Both the position numbers and the translations under genes were made by a program. A stretch of 64,000 nt of DNA. Source: Pseudarthrobacter enclensis. GTDB taxonomy: Bacteria; Actinomycetota; Actinomycetes; Actinomycetales; Micrococcaceae. Below, one piece after another: positions 23,549-39,246 of this stretch. The notes under the pieces were generated by a model. It ran no database searches, was not told where the DNA came from, and saw nothing but the letters and a program-made list of their open reading frames with translations. Position 1 is the first letter of the stretch, and every line of letters begins with the position of its first letter. The stretch is taken from contig NZ_JAUSRE010000004.1 of NCBI RefSeq assembly GCF_030811655.1, forward strand, positions 62,001 through 126,000. The letters run 5' to 3'.

Positions 23549-24280
23549 CTACCGGCCCCGCAGCGCCCCCAGCCCGGAGATCAAGGCCTCCAGTCCCATC
23601 CTGAAGGCCGTGTCCGCCGGGCGGCCCAGCTCCTGCGCGTTGGCTTCAGCGCGCCCACCGGAAGGATCCGCGTCCCGGGCCGAACTCCGCACCGCTGCGG
23701 TGAAATAGGGCGTGGCGTCGGCCATTGAACCCGACTCGAAGATGTCCTCCGGCGCCGTGACATCGTACGCAGACCCGAAGATGAACGACTCCAGCGCCAC
23801 GATCGCGGGAACGATGCGCTCCTGCGGGAAGCCGGCGTCGGAAAAGCCTTTGCTGACGGTCTCATACATGGCCAGCGTCTGGGGCGCGTCCGTGACCGGC
23901 AGGACTGCAATGACGGGGATCAGCGGAGTGTGCTCCGCGAAGACGTTCCGGTAGCTCCAGGCCCAGGTGCGGACCGCGTCCTCCCAATTTCCGGCCGCGA
24001 AGGCTGAAACGTCCACGAGCGACATCAGATGGTCTTCCACCAGCAGCAGGACGTCCTGCTTTGAGGCCACATGGTTGTAAAGGGCGGACGGCGCCACGTC
24101 GAGGACCTTGGCCAGGGCCGCCATGGTCAGCCCTTCATAGCCTTTGCGGCTGGCCAGTTCCAGCGCTGCCGCCGTGATTCCCGACTTGTCCAGCACCGCC
24201 GCCGACGGGCGTCCGGCCCGCCTTTTTTGCCCTGCCCCGTTGCTGGTGGGGCGTCCCCGTGCGGCTGATACTGCCGGCAT
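23549..24280 (-). CDS. TetR-family regulator of putrescine oxidase (putative)
   Basis: Repressor of 243 residues from ATG 24280 (GAAAGGG five bases upstream). After a basic, disordered ~30-residue start comes the TetR helix-turn-helix: KSGITAAALELASRKGYEGL, then MAALAKVLDVAPSALYNHVASKQDVLLL. The rest is an all-helical ligand-binding region, with WEDAVRTWAWSYRNVFAEH typical of the TetR C-terminal class. It is divergent from the putrescine oxidase gene, and the 136-base gap contains a perfect 21-base palindrome at 24359-24379, the likely operator for both genes. The ligand may be a polyamine; that is inference. Confidence 0.9.
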   Translation of the reverse strand: MPAVSAARGRPTSNGAGQKRRAGRPSAAVLDKSGITAAALELASRKGYEGLTMAALAKVLDVAPSALYNHVASKQDVLLLVEDHLMSLVDVSAFAAGNWEDAVRTWAWSYRNVFAEHTPLIPVIAVLPVTDAPQTLAMYETVSKGFSDAGFPQERIVPAIVALESFIFGSAYDVTAPEDIFESGSMADATPYFTAAVRSSARDADPSGGRAEANAQELGRPADTAFRMGLEALISGLGALRGR

Positions 24281-24358
24281 TGCTGCCCTTTCGTTGACGT
24301 CCCCTGCATTATTCCACCCGGTACTTCCGCTCCTGCCAGGCACCGGTTATAGTTCTAA

Positions 24359-24379
24359 TAAATGAATGACATTCATTTA
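24359..24379. promoter_or_regulatory. TetR operator, copy 1
   Basis: Perfect inverted repeat with arms TAAATGAATG and CATTCATTTA around one central A. It lies between tetR and puo. The same arms recur at 39226-39246. Confidence 0.85.
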
Positions 24380-24415
24380 GTGGTTCCTGTCACGAAGGGC
24401 CGCAGAGAGGACATC

Positions 24416-25807
24416 ATGCTGAACCTGAACCGCGACGTCGTAGTCGTTGGAGCCGGGCCGTCCGGACTCACGGCCGCCCGTGAATTGAAGAAGGCCGGCC
24501 TCACCGTAGCCGTGCTCGAGGCCCGCGACCGCGTGGGTGGCCGCACCTGGACGGACACGGTGGACGGCGCCATGCTCGAAATCGGGGGCCAGTGGGTTTC
24601 CCCGGACCAGACCGCCCTCCTGGAGCTGCTGGAGGAACTGAACCTGGAGACCTACCCGCGCTACCGCGACGGGGAGTCCATCTACATTGGCACCGACGGC
24701 TCACCCATTCGCTACACGGGCGACACCTTCCCCGTGGACGCCCCGACCGCCGTCGAAATGGACCGTCTTGTGGCCCTCCTGGACGGTCTCGCCGCCGAGA
24801 TCGGACCAACAGAGCCGTGGGCGCACCCCAAGGCCCGCGAGCTGGACACCATTTCCTTCCATCACTGGCTGCGGCAGAACTCAACCAACGAGGAAGCCTG
24901 CAAGAACATCGGCCTGTTCATCGCCGGCGGCATGCTCACAAAGCCGGCGCACTCCTTCTCCGCCCTTCAGGCAATCCTGATGGCCGCCTCCGCGGGCTCG
25001 TTCACCCACTTGACGGACGAGGATTTCATCCTGGACCGGCGCGTGGTGGGCGGGATGCAGCAGGTCTCCCTGCTGCAGGCGCAGGAGTTGGGTGGCGACG
25101 TCGTCCTCAACTCGCCGGTGCGCACCATCAACTGGGAGCCGGACGGCGACGGCGGCCACCGCACCACTGTCGAATCGGACCGGGCCACGGTCAACGCCCG
25201 CTTCGTGATCATGGCCGTGCCGCCCAACCTCTACTCGCGTGTCTCCTATAACCCGCCGCTGCCCCGCCGGCAGCACCAGATGCACCAGCACCAGTCCCTG
25301 GGCCTGGTCATCAAGGTGCACGCCGTCTACAGCACCCCGTTCTGGCGCGATAAGGGCTTGTCCGGGACAGGCTTCGGCGCCGACGCCCTGGTCCAGGAGG
25401 TCTACGACAACACCAACCACGGCGACCCGCGCGGCACTCTGGTGGGTTTCATCTCGGACGAGAAGGCCGACGCCATGTTCGAGCTGTCCGCCGAAGACCG
25501 CAAAAAAGCCATCCTGGAATCCATCGCCGGCTACCTCGGTGAGGAGGCGCTGACGCCGGAGGTCTACTACGAGTCCGACTGGGGCTCGGAGGAATGGACC
25601 CGCGGCGCGTACGCTGCCAGCTACGACCTGGGCGGCCTCCACCGCTACGGCAAGGACCAGCACGCACCGGTTGGTCCCATCTACTGGTCTTCCTCCGACC
25701 TTGCGGCCGAGGGGTACCAGCACGTGGACGGGGCAATCCGCATGGGCCGCATCACGGCCGCCCGGATCGCCGAGGTGGCAAAGATTCCGATGACCGCCGG
25801 CTGGTAA
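24416..25807 (+). CDS. puo: Putrescine oxidase (FAD amine oxidase)
   Basis: Oxidises putrescine to 4-aminobutanal with release of ammonia and hydrogen peroxide. At 463 residues it has the dinucleotide-binding start DVVVVGAGPSGLTAARELKK, EARDRVGGRTWTD, and IGGQWVSPDQ. The C-terminal FAD-binding segment is YWSSSDLAAEGYQHVDGAIR, near the substrate site. The whole sequence closely resembles, from memory, the Kocuria rosea and Rhodococcus putrescine oxidases, including the YDNTNHGDPRGTLVGFISDE stretch. ATG 24416 has AGAGAGGAC upstream; the longer start at 24362 would fall inside the operator palindrome. Likely repressed by the adjacent TetR and induced by polyamines. Confidence 0.92.
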   Translation: MLNLNRDVVVVGAGPSGLTAARELKKAGLTVAVLEARDRVGGRTWTDTVDGAMLEIGGQWVSPDQTALLELLEELNLETYPRYRDGESIYIGTDGSPIRYTGDTFPVDAPTAVEMDRLVALLDGLAAEIGPTEPWAHPKARELDTISFHHWLRQNSTNEEACKNIGLFIAGGMLTKPAHSFSALQAILMAASAGSFTHLTDEDFILDRRVVGGMQQVSLLQAQELGGDVVLNSPVRTINWEPDGDGGHRTTVESDRATVNARFVIMAVPPNLYSRVSYNPPLPRRQHQMHQHQSLGLVIKVHAVYSTPFWRDKGLSGTGFGADALVQEVYDNTNHGDPRGTLVGFISDEKADAMFELSAEDRKKAILESIAGYLGEEALTPEVYYESDWGSEEWTRGAYAASYDLGGLHRYGKDQHAPVGPIYWSSSDLAAEGYQHVDGAIRMGRITAARIAEVAKIPMTAGW

Positions 25808-25824
25808 ATAAGCATGCTTACTAA
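25805..25824. promoter_or_regulatory. MarR-type operator A upstream of the FMN stress protein
   Basis: TAAATAA-GCATGC-TTACTAA, overlapping the stop codon of puo. The 14 bases AATAAGCATGCTTA are shared with site B (32308-32327, opposite orientation). Confidence 0.7.
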
Positions 25825-25873
25825 TAGGCTGGCGGCGGGGAGCGTCCCCGACTTCAGACGAACGAGGTGAGGC

Positions 25874-26356
25874 ATGACTGACGCCCAGAGCATAAGCAAG
25901 GTTACGGAGATCATCAACGATTCCAGGATCGGGATGGTCACCACCATCAACGAAGAAGGCGCCCTCGTCAGCCGGCCCCTGGCCGTCCAGGAGGTAAAGG
26001 ACGACGGCGACATGTGGTTCTTCACGGGCCTTGGCACCTCCCAGGTTGCGCATGTCCGGGCTGATTCGCGCGTCAACGTCTCCTTTGGCAAGAACACCGA
26101 GTGGGTGTCCGTGGCCGGGACCGCACAGGTAGTCACGGACCGGACCAAAATCCGCGAGCTGTGGAACCAGGCCGTTGAAGCCTGGTTCCCGGACGGCCCG
26201 GACACCCCCGAGGTGTGCCTGCTGCACATCGACTCGGACTCCGCTGAGTACTGGACCAGCCCGGGCGGCACAGCAGCCACCGTCCTGCAATGGGTCAAGT
26301 CCAAGGTCACCCATGACCGGATGAGTGTCGGCGAAAGCGGCACCGTGGAACTGTAG
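25874..26356 (+). CDS. Pyridoxamine 5'-phosphate oxidase-fold (general stress protein 26-like) protein
   Basis: Split-barrel FMN- or F420-binding protein of 160 residues. The opening TEIINDSRIGMVTTINEEGALVSRPLAVQE and MWFFTGLGTSQVAHVRADSRVNVSF are typical of the general-stress PPOX group (Bacillus YdaG/GSP26-like). SAEYWTSPGGTAATVLQWVKSK is the conserved C-terminal end of that group. The substrate is unknown; a redox role under stress is likely. ATG 25874 has GAGGTGAGGC just upstream. The promoter region contains a site matching those around the marR gene at 32 kb, so it may belong to that regulon rather than to the polyamine genes. Confidence 0.88.
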   Translation: MTDAQSISKVTEIINDSRIGMVTTINEEGALVSRPLAVQEVKDDGDMWFFTGLGTSQVAHVRADSRVNVSFGKNTEWVSVAGTAQVVTDRTKIRELWNQAVEAWFPDGPDTPEVCLLHIDSDSAEYWTSPGGTAATVLQWVKSKVTHDRMSVGESGTVEL

Positions 26357-26383
26357 TTCCGGACGGTGGGCGGGGCGGGGCGG

Positions 26384-26992
26384 CTAAGGCTGCTCCGCCC
26401 CTTTCAATGCCTGCAGGACCGCCGGAAACAGCACCCCGCTCCGTCCCCACACCGGATCCAGGATTTCCACATACCAGGAATCCGCGAGCAGCAGGGCGAG
26501 GGCATCGTTGGTCTCCTCCGCCCAGTCCCGGATCTGTGCCTCCTCCACGGGACTCTCGCTGGAGCCAAGCACGGTAGTGATTTCAGCTCCTGCCAGCGTC
26601 ACGGGGATGGCGGCGCTGCTGGCTTCGCCCGGCGCATGGCCAACGGAAACCAGCTCGGTGCGGGTGGACAGCGCCAGCAACTGGCCAGCAACCCCTGCAC
26701 TGCAGAAACCGGTGACGTATTCACGCTGCGCCGCCCCCTCGGCGAGGATTCCCGGCTGCGATTCCTTGGTGAACAGTCCGTTGCGGTTCAGCCCGGCCAG
26801 CGCCGGGGCGATCGGCCTGGTCTCGTCGTCGAACGCGGCGGCCAAATGCCCCGGCTGATAGGAACTGCCGCCCTCCAGCCAGCGGGCGGTCAATTCACCG
26901 GCAGCCTCCAGGGTGGTGGCCTGCCGCCAGACCCCGCGGTCCTCCAGCAGCCGGCCGTACTCGTCATGGACCGGCAATTCCTCAGGCTTCAT
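26384..26992 (-). CDS. Hypothetical protein, possibly DUF6919-like
   Basis: A 202-residue soluble protein. The middle part ETRPIAPALAGLNRNGLFTK followed by ESQPG resembles the DUF6919 family of actinobacteria, in which a conserved ESQPG-type motif follows Leu/Asn-rich helices; this is from memory and not certain. No membrane segment or catalytic motif is obvious. It is convergent with the FMN protein gene and followed (in transcription) by no close partner. Codon use is normal for the region. Confidence 0.65.
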   Translation of the reverse strand: MKPEELPVHDEYGRLLEDRGVWRQATTLEAAGELTARWLEGGSSYQPGHLAAAFDDETRPIAPALAGLNRNGLFTKESQPGILAEGAAQREYVTGFCSAGVAGQLLALSTRTELVSVGHAPGEASSAAIPVTLAGAEITTVLGSSESPVEEAQIRDWAEETNDALALLLADSWYVEILDPVWGRSGVLFPAVLQALKGAEQP

Positions 26993-27052
26993 CCTGGGAT
27001 GCTACCGCCGGCCTGCGGGGCGGCCGCAACCCGGCCGACACGGCACTTAACC

Positions 27053-27667
27053 TCAGGCACCCTGCTCCAAAGGCAGCGCGGACGGAATTCCCGCCGCCCG
27101 TTCGGCTGCCGCCAGGGACGCGGCCAGGCTTCCGACGGCCTCCGGGTAGCCCTGGTGTGCCGCCTCCCGCAGCCGGTCCGCCGTCCGCATGGCCTTGATC
27201 AGCGCAGACGTTTCAGGCAGCCGGACGTCGGTCAGCGCCGGATAATCGATGCTGTAGGCGGGATCAAGTTCGTAACGCCGCCACCGGACCATGAGTTCAT
27301 CATGCTGCGCCCTGGCAGCCTGGTGGACTGAACGCTGCTGCCGCTGTTCACGCCGGGCGGCACGCCGGGCAAGGAACCTGGGGGTTGTTCGGTGGGCGGC
27401 AATTCCCGCAGCAGTGCCGGCCCCCGCCAGGACCAGTCCGGCCCACGGCGATACCAGTGCTGGGATCAACAAAGCGGGGATGGCCACGCAGGCGCCCAGG
27501 AAAAGGTCCCAGAACACCTGGTCCGGAGCTTCATCCGGTGAACTGCCCGCGGGAGCCAGCATCCGGCGTCGGACAACGAACATCGTGCCGGCCACGCTTG
27601 CCACCAACACCGGGCCGCACAGGAGCACCACCCAAGCGCCGTGGAACAGGGACTCAGCCATTGCCAT
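27053..27667 (-). CDS. Hypothetical membrane protein
   Basis: A 204-residue protein with an N-terminal membrane helix (AWVVLLCGPVLVASVAGTMFVV), a second hydrophobic hairpin (FLGACVAIPALLIPALVSPWAGLVLAGAGTA split by Pro), and a basic, coiled-coil-like cytosolic half (RRAARREQRQQRSVHQAARAQ and AADRLREAAHQGYPEAVGSL). ATG 27667 has GGAGG upstream. The family is not recognised. Confidence 0.65.
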   Translation of the reverse strand: MAMAESLFHGAWVVLLCGPVLVASVAGTMFVVRRRMLAPAGSSPDEAPDQVFWDLFLGACVAIPALLIPALVSPWAGLVLAGAGTAAGIAAHRTTPRFLARRAARREQRQQRSVHQAARAQHDELMVRWRRYELDPAYSIDYPALTDVRLPETSALIKAMRTADRLREAAHQGYPEAVGSLAASLAAAERAAGIPSALPLEQGA

Positions 27668-27748
27668 CGCACACCTCCGGGCGCCATAGCCCCGGCCGGA
27701 AAGCCCGGGCTGGTCCTTCCATTGGACCCCCTTCCAACAGGGGGGTCA

Positions 27749-27789
27749 ATGCCCGGGCGCGCCGGAATAAAAGCCCGCAGCCCGGGCAT
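27749..27789 (+). terminator. Possible hairpin before the FMN reductase gene
   Basis: ATGCCCGGG (27749-27757) pairs with CCCGGGCAT (27781-27789) around a 23-base loop and is followed by TTTGCTTT. A second inverted repeat, GACCCCC/GGGGGTC, sits just upstream (about 27725-27747). They may end transcripts entering from upstream or be regulatory. Confidence 0.35.
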
Positions 27790-27850
27790 TTTGCTTTATA
27801 TGGGCCTTCCACCCACAGGTCCATGGTCCTGTCCGGAAAGGAGGACGGTC

Positions 27851-28408
27851 ATGGTAAAGATCGCAGTAGTGGCGGGCAGCACCCGACCCGGGCGGCACAG
27901 CAGGCAGGTGGCGGACTGGGTACTCAGGCGCGCGAGGGAACGCGGCGGTGCCACCTTTGACCTGCTCGACGTGGCGGATTTCAATCTTCCCCTCCTGGAC
28001 GAGCCAATGCCGCCGTCCCGGGGCAACTACCAGCACGAACACACAAAACGGTGGGCCGCGGCCGTCAACGGGTATGATGGGTACCTCTTTGTCACTGCCG
28101 AATACAACCACTCTGTGCCCGGCGCCCTGAAGAACGCGCTGGACTTCCTGTACGCGGAATGGAACAACAAGGCTGCCGGCTTTGTGAGCTACGGGAGCGC
28201 CGGCGGCATCCGGGCCGTGGAACACCTCAGGCTTATTGTGGCCGAACTCCAGATGGCCGACGTCCGGGCCCAGGTATCCCTGCCGTTCGCCACGGAGTTC
28301 CAGGGTTACGCAGCCTTCACCCCCTCCGAGACCGCGGAGCAGGCTTTGCAGGCATTGTTCGACCAGCTGATTTCGTGGTCGGCAGCCCTGCAGGCCGTCA
28401 GGGCCTGA
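27851..28408 (+). CDS. NADPH-dependent FMN reductase
   Basis: Flavodoxin-like NAD(P)H:quinone or FMN reductase of 185 residues. The FMN phosphate loop is VVAGSTRPGRHSRQVADWVL, and the second flavin contact is VTAEYNHSVPGALKNALDFL followed by YAEW, diagnostic of the family. KAAGFVSYGSAGGIRAVEHL is the third conserved region. ATG 27851 has a perfect AAGGAGG eight bases upstream. It probably supplies reduced flavin or detoxifies quinones. It lies 16 bases ahead of the VOC-family gene, so the two may form an operon. Confidence 0.93.
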   Translation: MVKIAVVAGSTRPGRHSRQVADWVLRRARERGGATFDLLDVADFNLPLLDEPMPPSRGNYQHEHTKRWAAAVNGYDGYLFVTAEYNHSVPGALKNALDFLYAEWNNKAAGFVSYGSAGGIRAVEHLRLIVAELQMADVRAQVSLPFATEFQGYAAFTPSETAEQALQALFDQLISWSAALQAVRA

Positions 28409-28424
28409 CGGGTACCGTGGAAGC

Positions 28425-28805
28425 ATGCGAATCAAAATGTGCAGCATCCACGTCAAGGACCCCGCGGCCGCCCATGCCTTTTACACCGGGACCCTGGGTT
28501 TCGACACGCTCATGGCGATGCCTGAACACAACCTGTACATCATCAAGGATCCGGGAGCGGACGACAGTTCAGTTGGGCTGCTCCTGGAACCCAGCGACAA
28601 CCCGATCGGCGCGGACTATATGAACGCCGTGCGCGAGGCCGGTCTGCCCGCCATCGTTTTTGGGGTTCCGGACCTGCAGGCGGAGTATGACCGGCTTGTG
28701 GCTGCCGGCGTCAGCTTCAAGATCCCGCCCACCTCGGATCCGTTCGGTACCAGCGCCGTGTTTGACGACGGCTGCGGCAATTACGTGCAGATCCACCAGG
28801 ACTAA
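28425..28805 (+). CDS. VOC-family (glyoxalase/bleomycin-resistance-like) protein
   Basis: Small metal-binding-fold protein of 126 residues made of two beta-alpha-beta-beta-beta repeats. CSIHVKDPAAAHAFYTGTLG opens the fold, with the first metal His in SIHV. PTSDPFGTSAVFDDGCGNYV closes it, with the usual Asp-Gly-x-Gly-Asn turn. These residues are typical of glyoxalase-like extradiol or resistance proteins, but the substrate is unknown. It may be co-transcribed with the FMN reductase. Confidence 0.88.
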   Translation: MRIKMCSIHVKDPAAAHAFYTGTLGFDTLMAMPEHNLYIIKDPGADDSSVGLLLEPSDNPIGADYMNAVREAGLPAIVFGVPDLQAEYDRLVAAGVSFKIPPTSDPFGTSAVFDDGCGNYVQIHQD

Positions 28806-28896
28806 CGGTCCGCGATGCAATAGAAGCGTTGTTCGCGCATCCGGACCTTCAAGGCCCTGAGGGGCGGACAAGCTTCTGCAATGCGGCTGCCGGCTA

Positions 28897-29298
28897 TCAG
28901 GCCTGGGCGCGGTCCTTCTTGGCCTGCTTCTTTGCGGCTTCCTCCTTGACCCGCTGGGCTTCGGCGCGGACGGCCGCGTGCGTGGCCCGCTCGGTGACCA
29001 GCCACTGTGGGGGAGCCTGGAGCAGCGCGGTGATCTCCGCCGTCGTCAACGCTTCCTCAACCCCGCCGCGGGCAAGGCCGCTGATGGAAACATTCAGCTT
29101 CTGGGCGACAACCGGGCGGGGGTGGGGGCCGTTGCGGCGCAGTTCCGCCAGCCATTCCGGCGGGTTGGCCTGGAGCTCGGCGAATTCCTCGCGGGTAATG
29201 GTTGAATCCTGGAACTCCTGCGGAGCTGCCGGCAGGTAGATGCCAAGTTTCTTGGCTACGGTGGCCGGCTTCATGGACTGGGAGTTTGCAGAGGTCAT
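28897..29298 (-). CDS. DUF5997-family protein
   Basis: A 133-residue soluble protein. MKPATVAKKLGIYLPAAPQE followed by FQDS, then ELQANPPEWLAELRRNGPHP, RPVVAQKLNVSISGLARGG and LLQAPPQWL, match the actinobacterial DUF5997 family as I recall it. The C-terminus is Lys/Ala-rich. It is divergent, with a 37-base gap, from the LysR-substrate-domain gene; this pairing is widespread in related genomes and suggests a shared regulatory role, which is inference. Confidence 0.8.
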   Translation of the reverse strand: MTSANSQSMKPATVAKKLGIYLPAAPQEFQDSTITREEFAELQANPPEWLAELRRNGPHPRPVVAQKLNVSISGLARGGVEEALTTAEITALLQAPPQWLVTERATHAAVRAEAQRVKEEAAKKQAKKDRAQA

Positions 29299-29335
29299 GC
29301 TTCAAGGGTATCCGGGCGGCGGGTACTGTGAAGAC

Positions 29336-30082
29336 GTGCCCGCTGACGATTCCCCCACGACTGATGCCCAAACCGCCCCTGAGGAGGCTGCGCCGCGGGT
29401 GCTCCGCATTACCTATGTGCCGGGGGTAACGCCGGGCAAGTGGATCCGCCGGTGGGAGGAACGGATGCCCAATATTCCCCTCCAGGCATTTATGGTCGAC
29501 GACGGCGCCCAACTTGGCGGCCTCCGCGACGGCAGCGCCGAGATGGGATTTGTCCGCCTTCCCGTGGAGCGGGAGGGTCTCAGCCTCATACCCCTTTATG
29601 AGGAGCAACCGGTGGTGGTGGCTCCGAAGGGCCACGAGATCTCGGTGTTCGAGGAAGTGGCCCTTGCCGACCTTGACCAGGAATCCTTCCTTGACGTCGC
29701 GGCCCTGGGGGGCCCGGAGGCTTCTCTGCAGGTGGTTGCTGCGGGCGCCGGGCTGGTGATCCTTCCCATGTCCGTGGCCCGCCACTTCAATGTCAAGGAC
29801 ACCGTGGTACGCAGGCTCACAGGCGCGGGCGGCACCGGGATTGCGCTGGCGTGGCCCACGGACGCCACCGACGAGGTGCTCGAGGAGTTCATCGGCATCG
29901 TTCGCGGGCGCACCGCGCAGAGCTCCCGCCAGCCCTCCGCCCAGCCAACAACGGTGAAGAAGGAGCCCAAGCCCGACCGCAGGGGGACCGGCACCAAAAA
30001 AGGCCCCAAGGTGGCGCAGCGGTACGCGCCCAACCCGGACAAGGGCCGCGGACGGGGTTCACGGAAAAAGGGGAAACGCTAG
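29336..30082 (+). CDS. LysR substrate-binding-domain protein without helix-turn-helix
   Basis: A 248-residue protein whose core (LRITYVPGVTPGKWIRRWEE through ITPAPA-like ALAWPTDATDEVLEEFIGIV) is the periplasmic-binding-protein-like effector domain of LysR regulators. The DNA-binding helix-turn-helix is absent. The C-terminal ~55 residues are very basic (KKEPKPDRRGTGTKKGPKVA and beyond) and could contact nucleic acid. The GTG start at 29336 is preferred; the upstream ATG at 29240 would run through the divergent DUF5997 gene. A promoter shared with DUF5997 lies in the 37-base gap. Confidence 0.85.
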   Translation: MPADDSPTTDAQTAPEEAAPRVLRITYVPGVTPGKWIRRWEERMPNIPLQAFMVDDGAQLGGLRDGSAEMGFVRLPVEREGLSLIPLYEEQPVVVAPKGHEISVFEEVALADLDQESFLDVAALGGPEASLQVVAAGAGLVILPMSVARHFNVKDTVVRRLTGAGGTGIALAWPTDATDEVLEEFIGIVRGRTAQSSRQPSAQPTTVKKEPKPDRRGTGTKKGPKVAQRYAPNPDKGRGRGSRKKGKR

Positions 30083-30102
30083 CCCCGTCTTCGGGCAGCA
30101 GT

Positions 30103-30134
30103 GAAGCCGGCCCGCAGGGTGCGGAACCGGCTTC
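30103..30134. terminator. Bidirectional hairpin between convergent genes
   Basis: GAAGCCGG (30103-30110) pairs with CCGGCTTC (30127-30134) with a 16-base loop. It lies between the LysR-domain gene (plus) and the DUF3618 gene (minus). Confidence 0.6.
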
Positions 30135-30161
30135 GCTGGTGTTACTGGCTAGCCACGCAGG

Positions 30162-30803
30162 CTAGGTGTTTTGGATGTTGTCTTTGGCGTCTGTGGCGTG
30201 GTCTTTGACGTCGGTGGCGGCTTGTTGGCCTTCGGTTTTGACGTTTTGGGCGGCGTCGGTGGCGGTTGCTTTGACGTTTTCCATGGCGTCCTGGGCGACG
30301 GTTTTGGCGGCGTCGGTGACCTGGGTTGCCAGGGGTTGGGCTGCGGTTTTGAGTTGGTCCGCGGCTTCGCGTTCTTTCTCGCTGGCCGGGATCAGGGAGG
30401 AGATCAGCATGCCGGCGCCGAAGGCGATGAGTCCGGCGGCGAGGGGGTTGCCGGCGGTTTTGGCTTTGACCTGGTCCGGGGCGTTGGAGACGGCCTGGCC
30501 GGCGTCGGAGAGTTTGGCCGAGACGGTGTCCTGTGCCTGGTGGAGGCTGTCGCCGGCGGAGTGCATGGCGTTGGTGGTGTGGCCTGCTCCGGTGCTGGTG
30601 GTGTTGTGGACTGTGGTGGTGGCGGTGTCTGCGGCGCCCATGATTTTCTCCTTGACCCCGGTCATGGCGTCCCGGACTTTGTCGGTTTGGCGGTGGACGA
30701 TGTTGGACGGGGTGACTTTGTCGGCCACGGCGTCGACGTTGGTGCCCAGCCGTGCGCGGGTGGCTTCGATGTCTGCGCGGATGACGTCGGGGTTTTCGCT
30801 CAT
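30162..30803 (-). CDS. DUF3618 protein, third gene of the envelope-stress operon
   Basis: A 213-residue protein. The N-terminal NPDVIRADIEATRARLGTNV followed by DAVADKVTP is the DUF3618 signature. The middle has amphipathic repeats, then a short membrane helix (AAGLIAFGAGMLISSLIP), and the tail is a series of 11-residue LEA-like repeats (AKTVAQDAMENVKATATDA, AQNVKTEGQQAATDVKDHAT). GT-rich codon use gives an unusual base run on the plus strand. Start overlaps the holin-like gene by four bases. Such proteins are linked with membrane stress in Arthrobacter and Streptomyces; exact function unknown. Confidence 0.88.
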   Translation of the reverse strand: MSENPDVIRADIEATRARLGTNVDAVADKVTPSNIVHRQTDKVRDAMTGVKEKIMGAADTATTTVHNTTSTGAGHTTNAMHSAGDSLHQAQDTVSAKLSDAGQAVSNAPDQVKAKTAGNPLAAGLIAFGAGMLISSLIPASEKEREAADQLKTAAQPLATQVTDAAKTVAQDAMENVKATATDAAQNVKTEGQQAATDVKDHATDAKDNIQNT

Positions 30804-32190: not shown

Positions 32191-32283
32191 TTAGATACTA
32201 AGCACACTTTCCATTTCGATTGCAAGGGGTGCCGCTCCCGGGACCTGGTCTTTCCGGGCGGATGCGGAGGTTCTGGGGCTCGG

Positions 32284-32303
32284 ATAGTAAGCCTACTTGC
32301 GAA
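32284..32303. promoter_or_regulatory. Degenerate MarR-type site C
   Basis: ATAGTAA-GCCTAC-TTGCGAA, with the same 7-6-7 spacing as sites A, B and D but weaker arms. Confidence 0.45.
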
Positions 32304-32307
32304 TATG

Positions 32308-32327
32308 TTGCTAAGCATGCTTATTGT
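32308..32327. promoter_or_regulatory. MarR-type operator B upstream of marR
   Basis: TTGCTAA-GCATGC-TTATTGT, 59 bases before the marR start. Its 12-base core TAAGCATGCTTA is identical to site A. Confidence 0.75.
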
Positions 32328-32385
32328 AGGGGTGTAGCGACGCAGGGTGACCAGCACTTCGCCACCTACAGGAAGGCCGCGGCCG

Positions 32386-32925
32386 ATGACCAGCAATCTC
32401 GATCCGGACGCCCGGAGCAGCTACCGCCTGATTACCTTGGCGGCGCGGCTGATCCAGCGGCGCCAGGACGATGCACTGGCCCCCCTTGGCCTCACCCGTG
32501 CCGCCGTTATCGCACTGGAAGGCCTGACGGGGGGACCACTGAACCAGGAACAACTTGCCGAGGCGATCAGGGTCCAAAGCCAAACCCTCGGCCGTGTCCT
32601 GACCCGCCTTGAAGCCACGGGACATATCACCAGGACGCGCCATGCCTCGGACCGCCGGCAGCTGAAGGTTGAGCTTACGGATGCCGGCGTTGCTGCCGTG
32701 GAGGCAGCACGCCAAGCGGAAGTCAATGCCTACCCGGACGATCCGGACATTGCCTGGAAGGCGCTTCGGGAGGAACTGACAAAATTTGTCCGCGCCGTTC
32801 CGCTGGACCGCGACACCGGTGTTGTCCCGTTCGCCCCGCCTGAACACCGGACCGGGCACGCCCACCGGCCCCAGGCTGGACGGGCAGGCGGTCTCCGGGG
32901 CTGGGAGCAGCCGGGCCAGAATTGA
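32386..32925 (+). CDS. MarR-family transcriptional regulator
   Basis: Winged-helix repressor of 179 residues. Core: ITLAARLIQRRQDDALAPLG, then LNQEQLAEAIRVQSQTLGRV (recognition helix) and wing TRTRHASDRRQLKVELTDAG. ATG 32386 is chosen because AGGAAGG lies nine bases upstream; the in-frame codon at 32347 has no ribosome binding site. The ~35-residue C-terminal tail is disordered. It is divergent from the three-gene envelope operon, and the 273-base gap carries three copies of a 7-6-7 inverted repeat. It therefore likely represses itself and the operon, and a fourth copy at 25.8 kb suggests a distant target. Confidence 0.92.
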   Translation: MTSNLDPDARSSYRLITLAARLIQRRQDDALAPLGLTRAAVIALEGLTGGPLNQEQLAEAIRVQSQTLGRVLTRLEATGHITRTRHASDRRQLKVELTDAGVAAVEAARQAEVNAYPDDPDIAWKALREELTKFVRAVPLDRDTGVVPFAPPEHRTGHAHRPQAGRAGGLRGWEQPGQN

Positions 32926-33004
32926 GGCTGGCCTGGGGCCGGGCAAAGGTAAACCGACAACAGGAAGAAGCGGTGGCCGCCTTCCGGGTGATCAACGCTT
33001 CTTC

Positions 33005-33292
33005 CTAGCCTTTGTCTTCCGGTTCTTCCTCCAGCAAGCCCCGTTGAGCCAGGTCTGCGGCGTCGGCCGCTTCCGGCGGCAACGGGTCGGTGGCCGGCGG
33101 AACGTCGGCGGGAGCGTAGTCGGCGAGGCCCGCTGCCACCCGTTCCTGCTCCACTGCCCTTTGGTAATCGTCGTCGTCAACGTCCTCGGGCATCTTGCTG
33201 TGCCCCGTGCGGGTGGGGTTCGGAAGCGCATCCTCCTCCGGGACCATCACGCTGTCCAGGACGTCATCCGGGTTCTCATCTGCAGTGCTCAT
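33005..33292 (-). CDS. Small acidic hypothetical protein
   Basis: A 95-residue, strongly acidic protein (PDDVLDSVMVPEEDALPNPT, MPEDVDDDDYQRAVEQERVA) with no hydrophobic segment, probably disordered. ATG 33292 has GGAAGGGG upstream; the longer frame to 33532 would run into the baeRF gene in another frame and is rejected. It lies 44 bases downstream of the baeRF gene on the same strand and may be co-transcribed. Confidence 0.65.
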   Translation of the reverse strand: MSTADENPDDVLDSVMVPEEDALPNPTRTGHSKMPEDVDDDDYQRAVEQERVAAGLADYAPADVPPATDPLPPEAADAADLAQRGLLEEEPEDKG

Positions 33293-33336
33293 CGGTGCCC
33301 CTTCCAATCTTTGGGTTCCTGCAACGGCCGTAGGGC

Positions 33337-34473
33337 CTACGACGACGGGACGCCAGGCCCGGAGGACCAGCGCAGCAGTGCCGCGATATGGACGCCGGCG
33401 GGCAGGACAGGGCCCGGAACCAGGAGAATCCGGGCGTCGGTAAGCGCGGCCGCCCGAAGCAGCGCCGCGGGTGCGGGCACCTCTCCCAGGATTCCGGCAG
33501 GCAGGGCTTCCTCCTTGGCGGTGGCGATCCACGGCTCCGCGTCAAGGGCCAGCATGGTCCGGCCGGACAAGGCGGCATCATCGAAGATCAGGAGTTCCAC
33601 CTGGGCTTGCTGGAGCGCGTGCACCACAGCTCCGACGCCATGGGCCGCCTCCGGATTGGCCTGGCCCTCCCGGACCGCCAGCCTGTCCAGGACGGTTTGT
33701 TGCTCCTCTGCCCACACCTCGGCGACGTGCTGTTTGACCTGGTCCTCAAGGTTGGCACTGTCCGCCCCGGCTGTATGCGTGTGGGAATCCACTTCGGACA
33801 GGAGTGCCCTGCCTGCCTCGGAGAGATTTTCCTTGACCAGGCCTCGGGCTCGGATGTCACCGGCGAGGACGATGAGCCGGGCGCCGCTGGAACTGGCTAC
33901 CCTGTCGATTTCAACTGCCACCTCATCAGCGTTCCGGCGCCAAACGTCCTCGGTGTGGTGTTGGAACCGCAGCTCGGACCAGCCTCCGCCATGGAACTTG
34001 TGAAGGTGCTCGGACTCGCCTTCAACTTCCTGCACGCTGCGGGGAGCGCCGGCCCCGGCCCGGTACAGCCGGATTTCACCATGGTCGCGGCTTACTTCCG
34101 CCACAACGTACGGCAGGTCCTCCGGCCGGTGCTTGACCAGGGGGAGCAAATCCGGGACCGGCTCCAGTACCATCCGCTCCGGCAGGACCAGTTCGCCGGG
34201 GAGCACTTCGTTGACTTCCGTTTTTCCACCGTGGACCAGGACGAACCTGGACACAGGGGAAGGCATTCCTGTGGCCGGCTGAAGTGCCTGTTCCATCGCA
34301 TCGATGTCCGCCGCAGCTGCTCCCTGTGCTTCGAGCTGGGCGCGGGTGTTTCCGGCCCGGACGTCGCCGGCTTCCAGGGTGTCGACTGTTCCGGTGCCGG
34401 CATCCACGTACGCGGTGCACCAAGGGCCGGGGAGGCGGTACAGGTCCGCGAACTTCTGCAGGCTGCTGGTCAT
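33337..34473 (-). CDS. baeRF2/Vms1-like release-factor-domain protein (Rv2629 family)
   Basis: A 378-residue protein related to bacterial archaeo-eukaryotic release factor domain family 2 and the mycobacterial hypoxia protein Rv2629. It begins LQKFADLYRLPGPWCTAYVD and carries EGESEHLHKFHGGGWSELRF followed by QHHTEDVWRRNADEV, the eRF1-like catalytic-loop region. RLIVLAGDIRARGLVKENLS is the middle domain and VELLIFDDAAL opens the C-terminal domain. These proteins may act on ribosomes or peptidyl-tRNA; this is inference from Vms1. AGGAGGGG precedes the ATG at 34473. Confidence 0.85.
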   Translation of the reverse strand: MTSSLQKFADLYRLPGPWCTAYVDAGTGTVDTLEAGDVRAGNTRAQLEAQGAAAADIDAMEQALQPATGMPSPVSRFVLVHGGKTEVNEVLPGELVLPERMVLEPVPDLLPLVKHRPEDLPYVVAEVSRDHGEIRLYRAGAGAPRSVQEVEGESEHLHKFHGGGWSELRFQHHTEDVWRRNADEVAVEIDRVASSSGARLIVLAGDIRARGLVKENLSEAGRALLSEVDSHTHTAGADSANLEDQVKQHVAEVWAEEQQTVLDRLAVREGQANPEAAHGVGAVVHALQQAQVELLIFDDAALSGRTMLALDAEPWIATAKEEALPAGILGEVPAPAALLRAAALTDARILLVPGPVLPAGVHIAALLRWSSGPGVPSS

Positions 34474-34630
34474 TGTTTCCCCTCCTCTTTGCTGAAAAGG
34501 ATGAAGGGGGCCCTGCCGCGTTCTGCCATGACGATCTCCTTCGCCGCGTGACTTAGGATCACGAGCTGGTTCGTCACTTCACGCTAGCACCGGCGACCCG
34601 CGCGCTGAAGGGTCTTCCGGCCCTTGGTGA

Positions 34631-34972
34631 TCAGCGCTGGCAGGCGTCCTTGAGGGCCCTGACGGAGTCCGCCGGCACCTGGTCCCCGGACTCCGCAATC
34701 TGGCCCAACGGCGTCGTGATGTCCGCGGGGACGCCTGCCGCCTTTGCTGCCGAGACCAGGCCGGCCAGAGCCTTCTTGTCCTCAGAGCTGACCAAGCCGT
34801 TCTGGACGACAGCGCAGATTTGCCGGGTGACTTCCTGTGCTGCGGAGGAGGCGGCCTTGGAAGCGGCGTCGCTGGCGGCGTTGCCCGCGGCCTCCCCCAC
34901 GGCACCGCATCCCGTCAGCAGCAGGGCGGCGGCAAGGGCGGTGGCGGGAACGACGGCGGGCCGAAAAGTCAT
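34631..34972 (-). CDS. Small putative lipoprotein
   Basis: A 113-residue secreted protein. The signal peptide has hydrophobic core ATALAAALLLTGC with the lipobox Cys at residue 22. The mature part contains an Ala/Ser-rich helix (GEAAGNAASDAASKAASSAA) and a helical C-terminal domain with two Cys (ICAVVQNGL and KDACQR) that could form a disulfide. Family not recognised. Confidence 0.72.
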   Translation of the reverse strand: MTFRPAVVPATALAAALLLTGCGAVGEAAGNAASDAASKAASSAAQEVTRQICAVVQNGLVSSEDKKALAGLVSAAKAAGVPADITTPLGQIAESGDQVPADSVRALKDACQR

Positions 34973-34995
34973 GCATCCAGCGTACCGTCGGCTTC

Positions 34996-36246
34996 CTACC
35001 TGCGGGCGGGGACCCCCAGGATGGTGTCCAGCAGCCCGTTCCGGAACTTGCCCTCCGGATCGAGGCCGTGGGCGAAGGAGCGGAAGTCCGTGAACCGCGG
35101 GTACAGCGCCTCCCAGTCATGGCCCTCCGGAGTGAAGAGCTTGCCCCAGTGCGGACGTGCCCCAAAAGGCCGTAAAACATCCTCCAGGACCGGAAGAAAG
35201 GCTTCCACCTCGGGCTGCATCGGTTTCCAGGTGAAGTGCAGCGCCACACTCTGCCGGCGATAGAAGGGGCTGAGCCAGAACTCGTCCGCGGCGCCGGTCC
35301 TGATCTCCGAGACGAAGAGCAGGGGTGCCAGCTGTGGAGCCAGGCTGCGGACGGCCTGGAGGGCGGCGGGGGCGTGCTCCAGGGGAAGGATGAACTCGCT
35401 TTGGAGTTCGTCCCCGTTGCTCGGAGTGAACTCGTGCCGGAAGTGCGGCAACCGGTCCAGCCACTGCCCGGGTTCATCCAGCTGCGCGGTGCAGTTCTCC
35501 GCGGACATGTCCGGCAGAGGGTGCCGCGGCCGCAGAGCCGCCCTTGCCCCGAACAGGCCGGGGAGCGCCGGCTCCTCATCAAGAGCCTTGAGCCAGACCT
35601 GGTTGATCGTTTCCCCGGCGTAATCGGTGAACAGGCTCACGCTGTAGGCGGCGGACATGACGGCGCTGAACTCCTCGAGCGCGTTGTCCCAGGGCAGGTC
35701 CTCAAGGACCCGCTGGCGCATCCGGAAGCTGGGGCGGACCGCCAGTTCCAGGCCGGTGACAATTCCCAGGGCCCCCATGCCCACCACGCTGGCCAGGAAC
35801 TCGTCTCCATCCGCACGGGTGAGCGTCACCTGTTCTCCGGAGGCCCTGACCAGGTCGACGGATTCCACGGCGCCGGCCAGCGACGGGTTGTTCACCCCCG
35901 AGCCGTGCGTGCCCGTCTGGACCGCGCCGGCGACCGAGATGTGCGGCAGCGAGGCGAGGTTGTGGATGGCCACCCCGGAGTCCTCCAGGGTCCGGCACAG
36001 CGCCCCGTAGCTCACGCCGCCGCTGACGCGTACTGTTCCGCGCCCCGAATCCAGTTCCACCTGCTGCGGCAGGGCATCGAGGAGGACATGGACACCTTCC
36101 GTGTCCCCTACCCGGTTGAAGGAGTGCCGGGATCCCAGGGCCTTGACCCGCGGCGAGTTTGCGACGATCTCTGCCAACTCCGCTACGGATTCCGGCCGCC
36201 GCACATCCGCGGAGGAGTATTCGAGGTTTCCTGCCCAGTTTTTCAA
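34996..36246 (-). CDS. Alditol/xylitol oxidase-like FAD oxidoreductase
   Basis: VAO-family flavoprotein (416 residues) related to alditol oxidase AldO and D-arabinono-lactone oxidase; probably oxidises sugar alcohols with release of hydrogen peroxide. The start KNWAGNLEYSSADVRRPESV matches AldO. RVKALGSRHSFNRVGDTEGV holds the His that carries covalent 8-alpha-FAD. ISVAGAVQTGTHGSGVNNPS is the FAD pyrophosphate-binding stretch, and the C-terminal RPHWGKLFTPEGHDWEALYP is the ALO-type end. The start codon appears to be TTG at 36246. An imperfect LacI-type operator (36284-36297) lies in the promoter. Confidence 0.88.
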   Translation of the reverse strand: MKNWAGNLEYSSADVRRPESVAELAEIVANSPRVKALGSRHSFNRVGDTEGVHVLLDALPQQVELDSGRGTVRVSGGVSYGALCRTLEDSGVAIHNLASLPHISVAGAVQTGTHGSGVNNPSLAGAVESVDLVRASGEQVTLTRADGDEFLASVVGMGALGIVTGLELAVRPSFRMRQRVLEDLPWDNALEEFSAVMSAAYSVSLFTDYAGETINQVWLKALDEEPALPGLFGARAALRPRHPLPDMSAENCTAQLDEPGQWLDRLPHFRHEFTPSNGDELQSEFILPLEHAPAALQAVRSLAPQLAPLLFVSEIRTGAADEFWLSPFYRRQSVALHFTWKPMQPEVEAFLPVLEDVLRPFGARPHWGKLFTPEGHDWEALYPRFTDFRSFAHGLDPEGKFRNGLLDTILGVPARR

Positions 36247-36283
36247 TGGCGTGGCTTTCGCTTGGCAATCGGTTTCCCTTTAC

Positions 36284-36297
36284 TGTCAGCGCTAACA
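36284..36297. promoter_or_regulatory. LacI/GalR-type operator upstream of the alditol oxidase
   Basis: TGTCAGCGCTAACA, a 14-base near-palindrome with one mismatched pair, close to the classical LacI/GalR consensus TGTTAGCGCTAACA. It is 38 bases before the start codon. Confidence 0.55.
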
Positions 36298-36302
36298 ATT
36301 GC

Positions 36303-36350
36303 GGCTGTCAAGGCACTTCCGCGGGCTGGTCGCGGAAGCCCCTGACAGCC
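36303..36350 (-). terminator. Terminator of the agmatine deiminase-amidase operon
   Basis: Outer stem GGCTGTCA (36303-36310) with TGACAGCC (36343-36350), and inner stem CTTCCGCG (36316-36323) with CGCGGAAG (36331-36338). It lies 14 bases past the amidase stop on the minus strand. Confidence 0.75.
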
Positions 36351-36363
36351 CCGTGCCGCTGGC

Positions 36364-38139
36364 TTAGCCAACCCCTGGCTGCACGTCCCCGGCCATGGTG
36401 CGCGGAGGCGGAACCCGCCGGCTGCCGGTGGCTTCGAAGGCTGCCGCCAACCGGAGCAGGTCCGTGTCGCTGTAGGCCTTCCCGGCGATGGTGAGGCCCA
36501 CGGGCATGCCGATGTCCGCGGCGATGCCCATGGGAACGGTCACCGTGGGGATGCCCAAATGGCGGGGCACCAGGTTCCCGTTCGACACCCACACGCCGTT
36601 GCGCCACGCAATGTCCGCCGAAGCCGGGTTGGTGTCCGCATCCGCCGGTGCCACATCAGCGGCTGCCGGAAAGACGACGGCGTCCAGTCCCAGCCGGTCC
36701 ATCCACTCCTCGAGGTCCAGCCGGCGGGTTTCCTCCAGTCCTGCCAGGCCCTCGGGGAGATGGGGAATCTCGGTTAGTCGCGGGACACCGTGGCTCCTAA
36801 TCCAGGCGGGGTAGTCCGCGATGTCGTCGTCGAAACCGTCATAGCGGTCCGGCAGGGCGCCTTTCGGGGCGGGGAAGATGGCGGAGCCGTCCACATCGGC
36901 AAGCCGGTTCAGCTGCGGGTCACCGTTGGCGTCCAGGAAGTCATTCCATGCCCAGGCCGACAGGTCCACGATTTCGCGCCGCAGGTACTCCGGGGAAACC
37001 AGGCCGCGGGTGGAGATGGTGGGGGCGCCGGGCCGGTCGCCTTCGTAGTTGGTCACCACCGGGAAGTCCACCTCCACCACCTCCGCTCCGGCGGCCTCAA
37101 GGTCGCGGCGGGCGGCCTTCCACAGATCCAGGATTGATACCCGCGTTTCGATCCGCCGGCCGGTGGGGCCGCCGATGCCGGGCGCCTCCGCTGTTCCGGC
37201 TTCGGGATCGGCGTTGATGTACATCCGGGGGATGCCCAGGCGTTTGCCCGCGAGTACCCGCGCGCCCGCGCCCGCGTCTGCAACGGCGAGGTCAAGGTAC
37301 GACGCCGGGCGGACAGCAGATGCCTTGGGCAACGGAATCCACGGCTGGGTCCGCCAAAAGTCCCCGCGGGCCTCGGCGTCGTCCGCTACCACCGCGTCCA
37401 GGACTTCCAGCATGTCTGCCATGGTGCGGGTATGCGGAACCACCACATCCATAGTGGGAACCAGTGGCCAGTTGCCGCGCACGGAAATGACGCCGCGGGA
37501 GGGGGTGTAGGCGCACAGGGCGTTGTTGGACGCGGGCGCCCGTCCGGAGGACCACGTTTCTTCTGCCAACCCGAATGCTGCGAAGCTGGCCGCCGTGGCC
37601 GTACCGGAGCCGTTGGACGAACCGGACGCGAATGCTGCGGTCAGGAACTCGGCGCTGTACGGGCTTTCGGCGCGGCCGTATACCCCGCCCTGCATACCTC
37701 CATTGGCCATGGGCGGCATGTTGGTCAGCCCGATCAGGATGGCGCCGCCGGCCCGGAGCCGGGCGACAGTGAAGGCGTCGTGCCGCGCCACCAGGTCTTT
37801 GAACGCCGGAGACCCCGCTGCGACAGTCAGGCCCTTCACCTGGTAGCTGTCCTTGGCGGTATAAGGGATCCCATCGAGCGGGCCCAGCGTAAAGCCGGCA
37901 GCCCGCCGGCGGTCGGACGTCCGCGCCTCGGCAAGGGCTTCCGGATTCATGACGACAAGCGCATTCAGGTGTATGCCTGAAGAGTCATATTTCTCAATGC
38001 GCTCCAGGTACAGGCGGACCAATTCCACACTGGTGACTTCCCCGGACTCGAGGGCTGCCCGGAGTTGGGCGATGCCCGCCTCCACCACATCGAAATTTTT
38101 CACCCTGTCCGCACTGTGGGTCTGCCCGGCCGTTTTCAT
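36364..38139 (-). CDS. Amidase-signature family hydrolase; candidate N-carbamoylputrescine amidase
   Basis: A 591-residue enzyme of the Ser-cisSer-Lys amidase superfamily. The catalytic Lys is in GIPYTAKDSYQVKG and the cis-Ser in the Gly/Ser-rich ASGSSNGSGTATAASFAAFG. The nucleophile region reads EETWSSGRAPASNNALCAYT, where typical amidases read GTETDGSIRxPA. No signal peptide. It overlaps the agmatine deiminase stop by four bases (ATGA), so the two are translationally coupled. In an agmatine pathway the missing step is hydrolysis of N-carbamoylputrescine; usual AguB is a nitrilase-family enzyme and none is present here, so this amidase is proposed for the step. That is inference. Confidence 0.85.
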   Translation of the reverse strand: MKTAGQTHSADRVKNFDVVEAGIAQLRAALESGEVTSVELVRLYLERIEKYDSSGIHLNALVVMNPEALAEARTSDRRRAAGFTLGPLDGIPYTAKDSYQVKGLTVAAGSPAFKDLVARHDAFTVARLRAGGAILIGLTNMPPMANGGMQGGVYGRAESPYSAEFLTAAFASGSSNGSGTATAASFAAFGLAEETWSSGRAPASNNALCAYTPSRGVISVRGNWPLVPTMDVVVPHTRTMADMLEVLDAVVADDAEARGDFWRTQPWIPLPKASAVRPASYLDLAVADAGAGARVLAGKRLGIPRMYINADPEAGTAEAPGIGGPTGRRIETRVSILDLWKAARRDLEAAGAEVVEVDFPVVTNYEGDRPGAPTISTRGLVSPEYLRREIVDLSAWAWNDFLDANGDPQLNRLADVDGSAIFPAPKGALPDRYDGFDDDIADYPAWIRSHGVPRLTEIPHLPEGLAGLEETRRLDLEEWMDRLGLDAVVFPAAADVAPADADTNPASADIAWRNGVWVSNGNLVPRHLGIPTVTVPMGIAADIGMPVGLTIAGKAYSDTDLLRLAAAFEATGSRRVPPPRTMAGDVQPGVG

Positions 38140-39164
38140 GCGGCGCCACCTGTCCGCCCGGCCGGCTGCTGCTGCGTGATGCAGTGGATCCCGCCGCCAA
38201 ACGCGAAGATGTCCCTGGCGTCAACCAGTTCCACGGTGCGGCCGGGGTAGGCCCGTTCCAGGATGCCTGCTGCGATGGCATCGTTGGGGTCGTCGAAGCT
38301 GCAGAGCACCACTACGCCGTTGGCGACGTAATGGTTGATGTAGGACCAGTCCACCCATCCCTCGTCGTCTTTGAGCGTGGTGGGAGCGGGAACGTCGATG
38401 ATGCGGAGCGGCCGGCCCTGTGCGTCCAGCTGCCCGCCAAGGACTGCCTTCAGCTGCAGGTAGACGGCGTGGTCGGGGTGGGAGGGGTCGTCCTGGCGGT
38501 GCAAAAGGATGGTGCCGGGTCCGGCAAACGCGGCCACGATGTCCACGTGTCCGCGGGTGCCGAATTCGTCATAGTCCCTGGTGAGTCCGCGCGGAAGCCA
38601 GATGGCTTTCGTAGTGCCCAGGGCCCTGTGGATCTCCAATTCCACGGACTCCCTGGTGGCACCCGGGTTGCGGCCGGGATCCAGTTGGACGGTCTCCGTG
38701 AGCAGTACAGTCCCTTGGCCGTCCACGTGGAAGCCGCCGCCCTCGTTCACCAGGGACGTCTGCAGGAGAGGTGCCCCAATGCCTGCGGCCACGGTCTGCG
38801 CCACGGCTTGGTCTTTCTCCCATGCGGCCCATTCCTGCGCACCCCAGCCGTTGAAAGTCCAGTCCACGGCGGCGATTGAACCGTCCGGCACGTGGACGAA
38901 CGTGGGGCCGCTGTCCCGCAGCCAGGCGTCGTCGAGCGGTACTTCCACGACGTCGACGCGGTCCCCGAGCCATTCCCGTGCAGCGGTGGCGTCCCTGGGG
39001 TCGGCCACGACTGTGACGGGTTCGTACCTGGCGATGGTGTGCGCAACGCTGGTCCAGGCCGCGCGGGCGCGGTCCAGGGTGGGGCTTCCGGTGGGGCCAA
39101 AGGTGTCGTTGGGGGGCGGGAAGGCCATCCATGTGCGTTGGTGGTCGTCCCACTCTGCGGGCAT
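38136..39164 (-). CDS. aguA: Agmatine deiminase
   Basis: Converts agmatine to N-carbamoylputrescine and ammonia. At 342 residues it is a complete PPAD-family deiminase: MPAEWDDHQRTWMAFPPPND is the conserved start, TTKAIWLPRGLTRDYDEFGT and ILLHRQDDPSHPDHAVYLQL follow, and FAFGGGIHCITQQQPAG at the end holds the nucleophile Cys in the family GGGIHCITQQ motif. ATG 39164 is chosen because it gives this start; the longer frame begins inside the upstream operator. The gene leads an operon with the amidase. A 21-base palindrome 62 bases upstream (39226-39246) matches the TetR operator at putrescine oxidase. Confidence 0.93.
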   Translation of the reverse strand: MPAEWDDHQRTWMAFPPPNDTFGPTGSPTLDRARAAWTSVAHTIARYEPVTVVADPRDATAAREWLGDRVDVVEVPLDDAWLRDSGPTFVHVPDGSIAAVDWTFNGWGAQEWAAWEKDQAVAQTVAAGIGAPLLQTSLVNEGGGFHVDGQGTVLLTETVQLDPGRNPGATRESVELEIHRALGTTKAIWLPRGLTRDYDEFGTRGHVDIVAAFAGPGTILLHRQDDPSHPDHAVYLQLKAVLGGQLDAQGRPLRIIDVPAPTTLKDDEGWVDWSYINHYVANGVVVLCSFDDPNDAIAAGILERAYPGRTVELVDARDIFAFGGGIHCITQQQPAGRTGGAA

Positions 39165-39225
39165 GTGCACGGAGCTGCCGGTGGAAATGTGGCCAGGGGC
39201 GGCGCTGTCCCCGACCACGGTCGAA

Positions 39226-39246
39226 TAAATGAATGCCATTCATTTA
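39226..39246. promoter_or_regulatory. TetR operator, copy 2
   Basis: Arms TAAATGAATG and CATTCATTTA around a central C. The arms are identical to copy 1 (24359-24379), which has central A. It lies between aguA and the alpha/beta-hydrolase gene, upstream of aguA. Confidence 0.85.

Follow-up and report, generated by a model that had tools for sequence, protein, structure and literature searches.

A 21-bp palindrome predicted to place putrescine oxidase, agmatine deiminase and a permease under one TetR-family regulator in Pseudarthrobacter enclensis

Two palindromes and the genes they precede

The window analyzed here, a 64,000-nucleotide stretch of Pseudarthrobacter enclensis (assembly GCF_030811655.1, contig NZ_JAUSRE010000004.1, positions 62,001 to 126,000), encodes a TetR-family regulator and enzymes that it may control through a 21-bp palindrome. 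The regulator gene, tetR (23549-24280, minus strand), diverges from puo (24416-25807, plus strand), which encodes a putrescine oxidase. A separate operon carries aguA (38136-39239, minus strand), for agmatine deiminase, and aguY (36364-38139, minus strand), for an AguY-type N-carbamoylputrescine amidohydrolase of the amidase-signature family; the ATG of aguY overlaps the stop codon of aguA (ATGA). The palindrome, to which no strand is assigned, occurs in front of both sets of enzyme genes. Operator 1, TAAATGAATGACATTCATTTA (24359-24379), lies between tetR and puo, 36 bp from the ATG of puo (24416) and 78 bp from that of tetR (24280), while operator 2, TAAATGAATGCCATTCATTTA (39226-39246), precedes aguA-aguY at a distance of 14,867 bp from operator 1. 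All 20 arm bases are common to the two, and the sole difference is the center base (A versus C). An initial annotation of this DNA had reported both palindromes, the identity of their arms and the arrangement of the surrounding genes, and each of these is confirmed.

The same annotation had held that such a match is not expected by chance, and the numbers agree. One hundred dinucleotide-preserving shuffles of the window yield no palindrome match, reversed-pattern controls yield none, and about 4e-8 perfect matches per genome would be expected from base composition alone, so a chance match was rejected. With up to 3 mismatches allowed, the window holds no further match besides operators 1 and 2, and the 4.74-Mb genome as a whole holds three (the pattern read backwards, used as control, gives 0). 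The third site, with 2 mismatches, lies at 7151-7171 of contig C42, 38 bp ahead of a gene for a 518-aa amino-acid permease of the amino-acid/polyamine type (PF13520, PF00324), and a weaker copy of the palindrome (5 mismatches) begins 53 bp upstream of it. In this genome, then, each site stands before a gene whose product is an enzyme of the agmatine-putrescine route or a permease, and an amine of that route is the likely substrate of the C42 permease. What had been described as a two-locus regulon is right in that both loci carry the site, but the set extends to at least three loci: tetR/puo, aguA-aguY and the permease. (A shortened 15-base core, again with up to 3 mismatches, hits 41 places in the genome versus 14 for its reversed control and was judged too loose; only the three full sites and the weak second copy ahead of the permease were retained from that scan.)

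The enzymes fit together as a breakdown route. PuO scores 887.7 bits against PDB entry 3rha and 731.9 bits against 2yg3, both named putrescine oxidase, with the next other amine oxidase at 255.5 bits, and by these scores it is nearer to characterized putrescine oxidases than to other amine oxidases. AguA matches PF04371 (351.1 bits), and its best solved relative is an agmatine iminohydrolase (1vkp, E 2.2e-68). The amidase scores above the cut-off of NF005127 (1050.9 bits) and aligns with PDB entry 6te4, Tse8, over residues 16-581 (872.5 bits). Because it is homologous over its full length to the AguY/Tse8 amidase clade and its gene adjoins aguA, it is assigned to the AguY family, the non-canonical N-carbamoylputrescine amidohydrolases described in 2025. 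According to that report (PMC12283126), Tse8 evolved from AguY, an N-carbamoylputrescine amidohydrolase encoded beside aguA, and hydrolysis of N-carbamoylputrescine was measured for the AguY proteins of Shewanella oneidensis and Microterricola gilva. AguB was rejected as the N-carbamoylputrescine enzyme in this organism, and the step assigned to AguY, because the genome has no AguB relative at E 1e-60. Since the amidase belongs to a family with demonstrated activity in relatives, the route is complete on paper. It runs from agmatine through N-carbamoylputrescine and putrescine to 4-aminobutanal, the order that the initial annotation had found sensible, with an AguY-like amidase supplying the second step. 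A biosynthetic reading was also rejected, as a search covering only the SpeA type of arginine decarboxylase finds none above cut-off in the genome.

The product of tetR combines an N-terminal helix-turn-helix with a TetR-type C-terminal domain (PF00440 at 40.3 bits and PF02909 at 41.5 bits, both above cut-off), and a palindrome, the predicted operator, lies beside its own gene over the likely puo promoter, which makes it a likely repressor of the set. A longer frame with a GTG start is open up to 24343. The AlphaFold model of the protein (mean pLDDT 81.7, built with 8 sequences) retrieves TetR-family proteins throughout the best 50 rows of a Foldseek search, none of those rows being named polyamine-binding; the nearest is 2g7g, whose ligand is unassigned. 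In an alignment of 8 TetRs the SALYNH stretch of the recognition helix does not vary, and it is conserved at 90% or more in 43; acidic and aromatic residues of the ligand domain are invariant across the 8.

Distribution of the site in the genus and family

Conservation of the site was surveyed in 59 genomes (this one included), 37 belonging to the genus and 22 to other genera of the order. Sites are found in 36 genomes, all of them within the genus, for a total of 85 (reversed controls 0), and in none of the 22 others. The TetR ortholog (E 1e-30) is present in 37/37 genus genomes and 0/22 of the others, and adjoins a site in 36. All 85 sites were placed on genome DNA, with leftovers inspected by eye. 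The position of operator 1, between tetR and puo, is occupied once in each of 36 genus genomes, the start of puo being 36-61 bp off, and that of operator 2, directly ahead of aguA-aguY, in 10. The operon aguB-aguA-permease stands behind 13 sites (9 genomes), aguA-permease behind 2, a permease alone behind 17, and an operon led by an MFS gene and ending in aguA-aguY behind 3 (genomes G009, G020 and G024). In these MFS-led cases the site is ahead of the operon's leading gene and some 3 kb away from aguA; the assignment comes from profiles of the MFS and amidohydrolase genes in G020, from the MFS frame in G024, and from an identical start sequence in G009.

Named route genes or the permease thus account for 81 of the 85 sites, or 83 if two more amino-acid permeases are counted. 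These two extra permease genes, each with one site, are both in genome G033 (loci L095 and L096), and suggest that the transporter set of the regulon can grow. For the initial annotation, the motif at many unrelated promoters would have spoken against the regulon. The scan of genome and relatives that it proposed finds instead the three sites of this genome and the 83 of 85 in the genus at route genes or amino-acid permeases, and a general motif at unrelated promoters was rejected on that placement.

The enzyme for the middle step varies across the genus. Of its 37 genomes, 30 carry AguA (E 1e-60), 20 AguY (E 1e-120) and 11 AguB (E 1e-60). Each of the 30 AguA genomes also has AguB or AguY, which are unrelated to each other; G009 alone has both, and the 7 genomes lacking AguA have neither. 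This distribution gives a Fisher exact p = 3.7e-7 among the 30, uncorrected for relatedness, and the enzyme appears to have been swapped between AguB and AguY, with the operator either retained or acquired anew. Among the 20 AguY genomes of the genus, the site lies ahead of the operon in 13. A second aguA-aguY lineage, with AguA 55-57% identical to that of the window, occurs in G004, G011, G021, G022, G026, G032 and G033 and has no site; it served as a control, and indicates that having the aguA-aguY function is not enough for a site to be there. At the two second-lineage loci that were read, L105 and L112, a different TetR-type gene (BetI-like in L105) is divergent to aguA and there is no site.

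Another gene encountered in these comparisons encodes a second TetR, 28-32% identical to the window TetR, at loci L086, L098, L101, L102, L113, L114 and L143 and in genome G009. It sits between an alpha/beta-hydrolase gene, or genes near it, and an MFS gene, and in several of these loci a TGAAAG-N-CTTTCA-like palindrome is found upstream of the operator.

In the family as a whole, 141 of 197 genomes and 26 of 32 genera, the genus itself included, have a TetR homolog (E 1e-25), with no more than 14 first-look candidates scored per genome. From this search 31 genomes of other genera were picked by hand, mostly one per genus, 25 of them having a TetR match and 6 having none. Sixteen of the 31 contain the exact core AATGAANNNNNTTCATT, at 20 places in all (control 1); of those that have no TetR match, 0/6 contain it. 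Fifteen of the 20 core sites adjoin the TetR homolog, the far side being occupied by puo in 14 and by an aldehyde dehydrogenase gene in one (G077). The other five stand, one each, ahead of aguA-permease, of aguB-aguA-permease, of an aldehyde dehydrogenase gene with aguB-aguA-permease behind it, of a permease gene with aguY behind it, and of a second puo with aguA-aguY behind it. Aldehyde dehydrogenase genes directly behind a site (L275 in G102, L264 in G077) are likely to serve the step next after 4-aminobutanal, or a later one.

Clusters that join all these genes are seen in other organisms. Of 595 aguY relatives, the loci of the best 80 were examined by name. At up to 4 mismatches a site match occurs in 19 of the 80, and in 5 of the 80 a stretch no longer than about 10 kb unites tetR, puo, permease, aguA and aguY, with a site before puo. 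These five are from Kocuria (L114 and L123), Arthrobacter cheniae (L116) and Nocardiopsis (L149 and L152). The three loci of the present genome therefore correspond to one cluster in those organisms.

Promoter layout and the start of aguA

Promoter alignment and a test for a second operator copy cover 66 promoters: 17/17 permease-first, 9/13 aguB-first (the four sites outside the test are themselves second copies), 10/10 aguA-first, 27/36 puo-first and 3/3 MFS-led. The probable -10 box of puo, TATAGT (24348-24353, plus strand), lies 5 bases ahead of operator 1, and all 27 puo promoters in the alignment show a similar box, with variants. The probable -10 box of aguA, CATAAT (39246-39251, minus strand), shares its last base with the first base of operator 2, and a probable -35 box, TTGCGC (39269-39274, minus strand), lies 17 bp from it; all three boxes were read from the DNA. 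The 10 aligned aguA promoters have TTGC at the -35 place and CATAAT or CATACT at -10. Promoters of aguA, the permease and aguB follow one pattern: TTGC and then, after a spacer near 17 bp, CATAAT or CATACT with its last base on operator base 1 (one aguB promoter has GATACT instead). In the puo-type and the aguA-type layout alike the predicted operator covers the start of transcription, an arrangement that fits repression.

The promoter types differ in a second feature. A weaker copy of the operator (3-6 mismatches) lies 53-54 bp, or five helical turns, upstream in 14/17 permease and 9/9 aguB promoters, a score of 6 mismatches having been reached by only 1/2000 shuffled stretches. At the 10 aguA and 27 puo promoters tested, the best candidate for such a copy has at least 10 mismatches. 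This second copy may give tighter control at the permease and aguB promoters.

The start of aguA bears on how close the operator lies to it. The initial annotation put 62 bases between palindrome and operon, which stands if translation begins at the internal Met at 39164 (a gap of 61 bp), but the ATG at 39239, the second of two inside operator 2 itself, may be the real start. That ATG shares the aguA frame and follows the -10-like CATAAT by six bases. The frame that it opens is uninterrupted in 10/10 aguA loci, with indels of whole codons only, and no Shine-Dalgarno sequence is seen ahead of Met 39164. In the two MFS-led loci that were read, the aguA start is likewise upstream of the internal Met. 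Within the 25-codon extension substitutions are not enriched at third positions (269, 311, 305), so constraint at the protein level is unsupported there. A leaderless aguA message may well start inside the operator.

Assignment of the operator and its alternatives

The palindrome is very probably the operator of the TetR encoded at 23549-24280, which would use it to control puo, aguA-aguY and the permease in response to an amine of the agmatine-putrescine route; the neighboring TetR is the likely binder. When no inducer is present, a repressor dimer would occupy sites that overlap the -10 box or transcription start and block RNA polymerase. Agmatine, N-carbamoylputrescine or putrescine would release it, and the induced permease would then import the amine. 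AguA would convert agmatine to N-carbamoylputrescine, AguY would convert this to putrescine, and PuO would oxidize putrescine to 4-aminobutanal with release of ammonia and hydrogen peroxide. The regulon of the initial annotation is supported by these tests; it takes in more loci than first described and makes biochemical sense, and the support is unusually good for a case built from sequence alone. Because the same operator heads aguB-aguA-permease, aguA-permease, MFS-led aguA-aguY and, elsewhere, the joint cluster, the set appears modular, its gene sets having been split, lost or swapped with the operator kept or regained. Opinion can be divided evenly over a broader formulation, in which one TetR would be the master switch of agmatine and putrescine breakdown from Micrococcaceae to Nocardiopsis and its operator a portable tag. 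The cluster would have split into up to three loci, AguB and AguY would have been exchanged with the tag kept or regained, and the tag would also provide the codon at which a leaderless aguA message starts.

Several observations weigh against assigning the whole set to this regulator. The exact core is absent from 9 of the 25 hand-picked genomes with a TetR homolog, and 7 of the 20 AguY genomes of the genus carry an aguA-aguY pair with no site. Genes for the steps at 4-aminobutanal and gamma-aminobutyrate (GABA) have no site in this genome at up to 3 mismatches. AguA falls below the NCBIfam TIGR03380 equivalog cut-off (291 versus 381.8 bits), so its name rests on homology and on its aguY neighbor, and the genome holds two ureohydrolases, so a direct agmatinase route is possible. 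Among the 85 genus sites, one is at a contig end (in G018, whose aguB is on another contig) and one, with 3 mismatches (G002:C11:707079-707099, locus L081), precedes no recognizable amine gene. G031 is the sole genus genome without a match; tetR there adjoins aguB-aguA-permease, and its best site, with 4 mismatches, lies between them. Finally, the three MFS-led sites may belong to the second TetR encoded beside them.

That last point can be extended to the window, though we consider it improbable that aguA-aguY is, or was until recently, under the second TetR, acting through a related TGAAAG-N-CTTTCA operator whose likeness to the puo operator would be convergence. In G009, G020 and G024 a TetR 28-30% identical to that of the window adjoins the site before the MFS gene, the palindrome TGAAAGGCTTTCA lies 53-54 bp upstream of that site, and the MFS-led sites read TAAATGAAGGCCATTCATTTT, two positions off the puo type. 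The window, however, has neither a second TetR (lost or never present) nor an MFS gene between the alpha/beta-hydrolase gene (39287-39997) and aguA, and its aguA site has both arms identical to those of the puo operator, as do the aguA-aguY sites of several relatives.

Slightly less probable again is control of the sites by a regulator not encoded here, the TetR beside puo being only local or acting on something else. Binding of the sites by this TetR is what we infer from their placement; tetR, being divergent, could be a bystander, and operator 1 is nearer to puo than to tetR. Against this, TetR homolog and site co-occur across genera (in the 15 adjoining core sites of 20, and in the empty result for the six TetR-less genomes), and in G031 and G064 TetR is beside the aguB-aguA-permease operon. 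Chance, or recent duplication of one stretch of DNA, could give the identical arms of the two window sites but is next to impossible and already refuted by the comparison across genomes, as the conserved 21 bases stand in unlike flanking sequence at the two sites, the 100 shuffles give no match, and the genes that bear a site are the same few throughout 36 genomes.

Control of the set by the TetR at 23549-24280 has partial precedents. In Pseudomonas aeruginosa (PMC4287709), AguR is released by agmatine and binds between -35 and -10, and the window TetR may work like it, the likeness being one of mode of action. That system is one local aguBA operon with the nitrilase AguB, whereas here at least three loci would share a common operator and include putrescine oxidase, AguY and a permease. 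The account of the AguA-AguY pathway (PMC12283126) has aguA beside the same amidase family as in the window; a TetR, an operator and putrescine oxidase go unmentioned in the portion compared, whereas here AguY would have a link to the oxidation of putrescine. AmvR of Acinetobacter baumannii (PMC12077194), like the window protein a member of the TetR family, binds polyamines by acidic residues and a Trp-lined tunnel, and has one operator over -10 boxes and another upstream of the -35 box; unlike the set proposed here, it governs an efflux pump and not catabolism. Arthrobacter sp. Rue61a (PMC3534580) can draw both carbon and nitrogen for growth from agmatine and putrescine, and a route through AguA and putrescine oxidase was proposed for it, as here; the agmatine route was termed incomplete, and the portion compared mentions no operator or shared regulator. 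A search of the open-access literature by title and abstract, with subscription papers outside its scope, finds no description of the operator or regulator.

If the assignment is right, a soil genus whose agmatine route was once called incomplete gains a full and jointly regulated one, and the newly named AguY is linked in these bacteria to the breakdown of amines, not their synthesis. The TetR and its 21-bp operator would be a ready sensor for agmatine or putrescine, and the comparisons would offer a case of a regulon surviving both the break-up of its cluster and the replacement of an enzyme, by an operator kept or regained.

Two further genes lie next to those discussed. A gene for an FAD-linked ALO-type oxidase (34996-36246, minus strand) lies 117 bp behind aguY, and such a gene is near aguY in several relatives, not always adjoining it. 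A pyridoxamine-phosphate-oxidase-like gene (25874-26356, plus strand) comes after puo.

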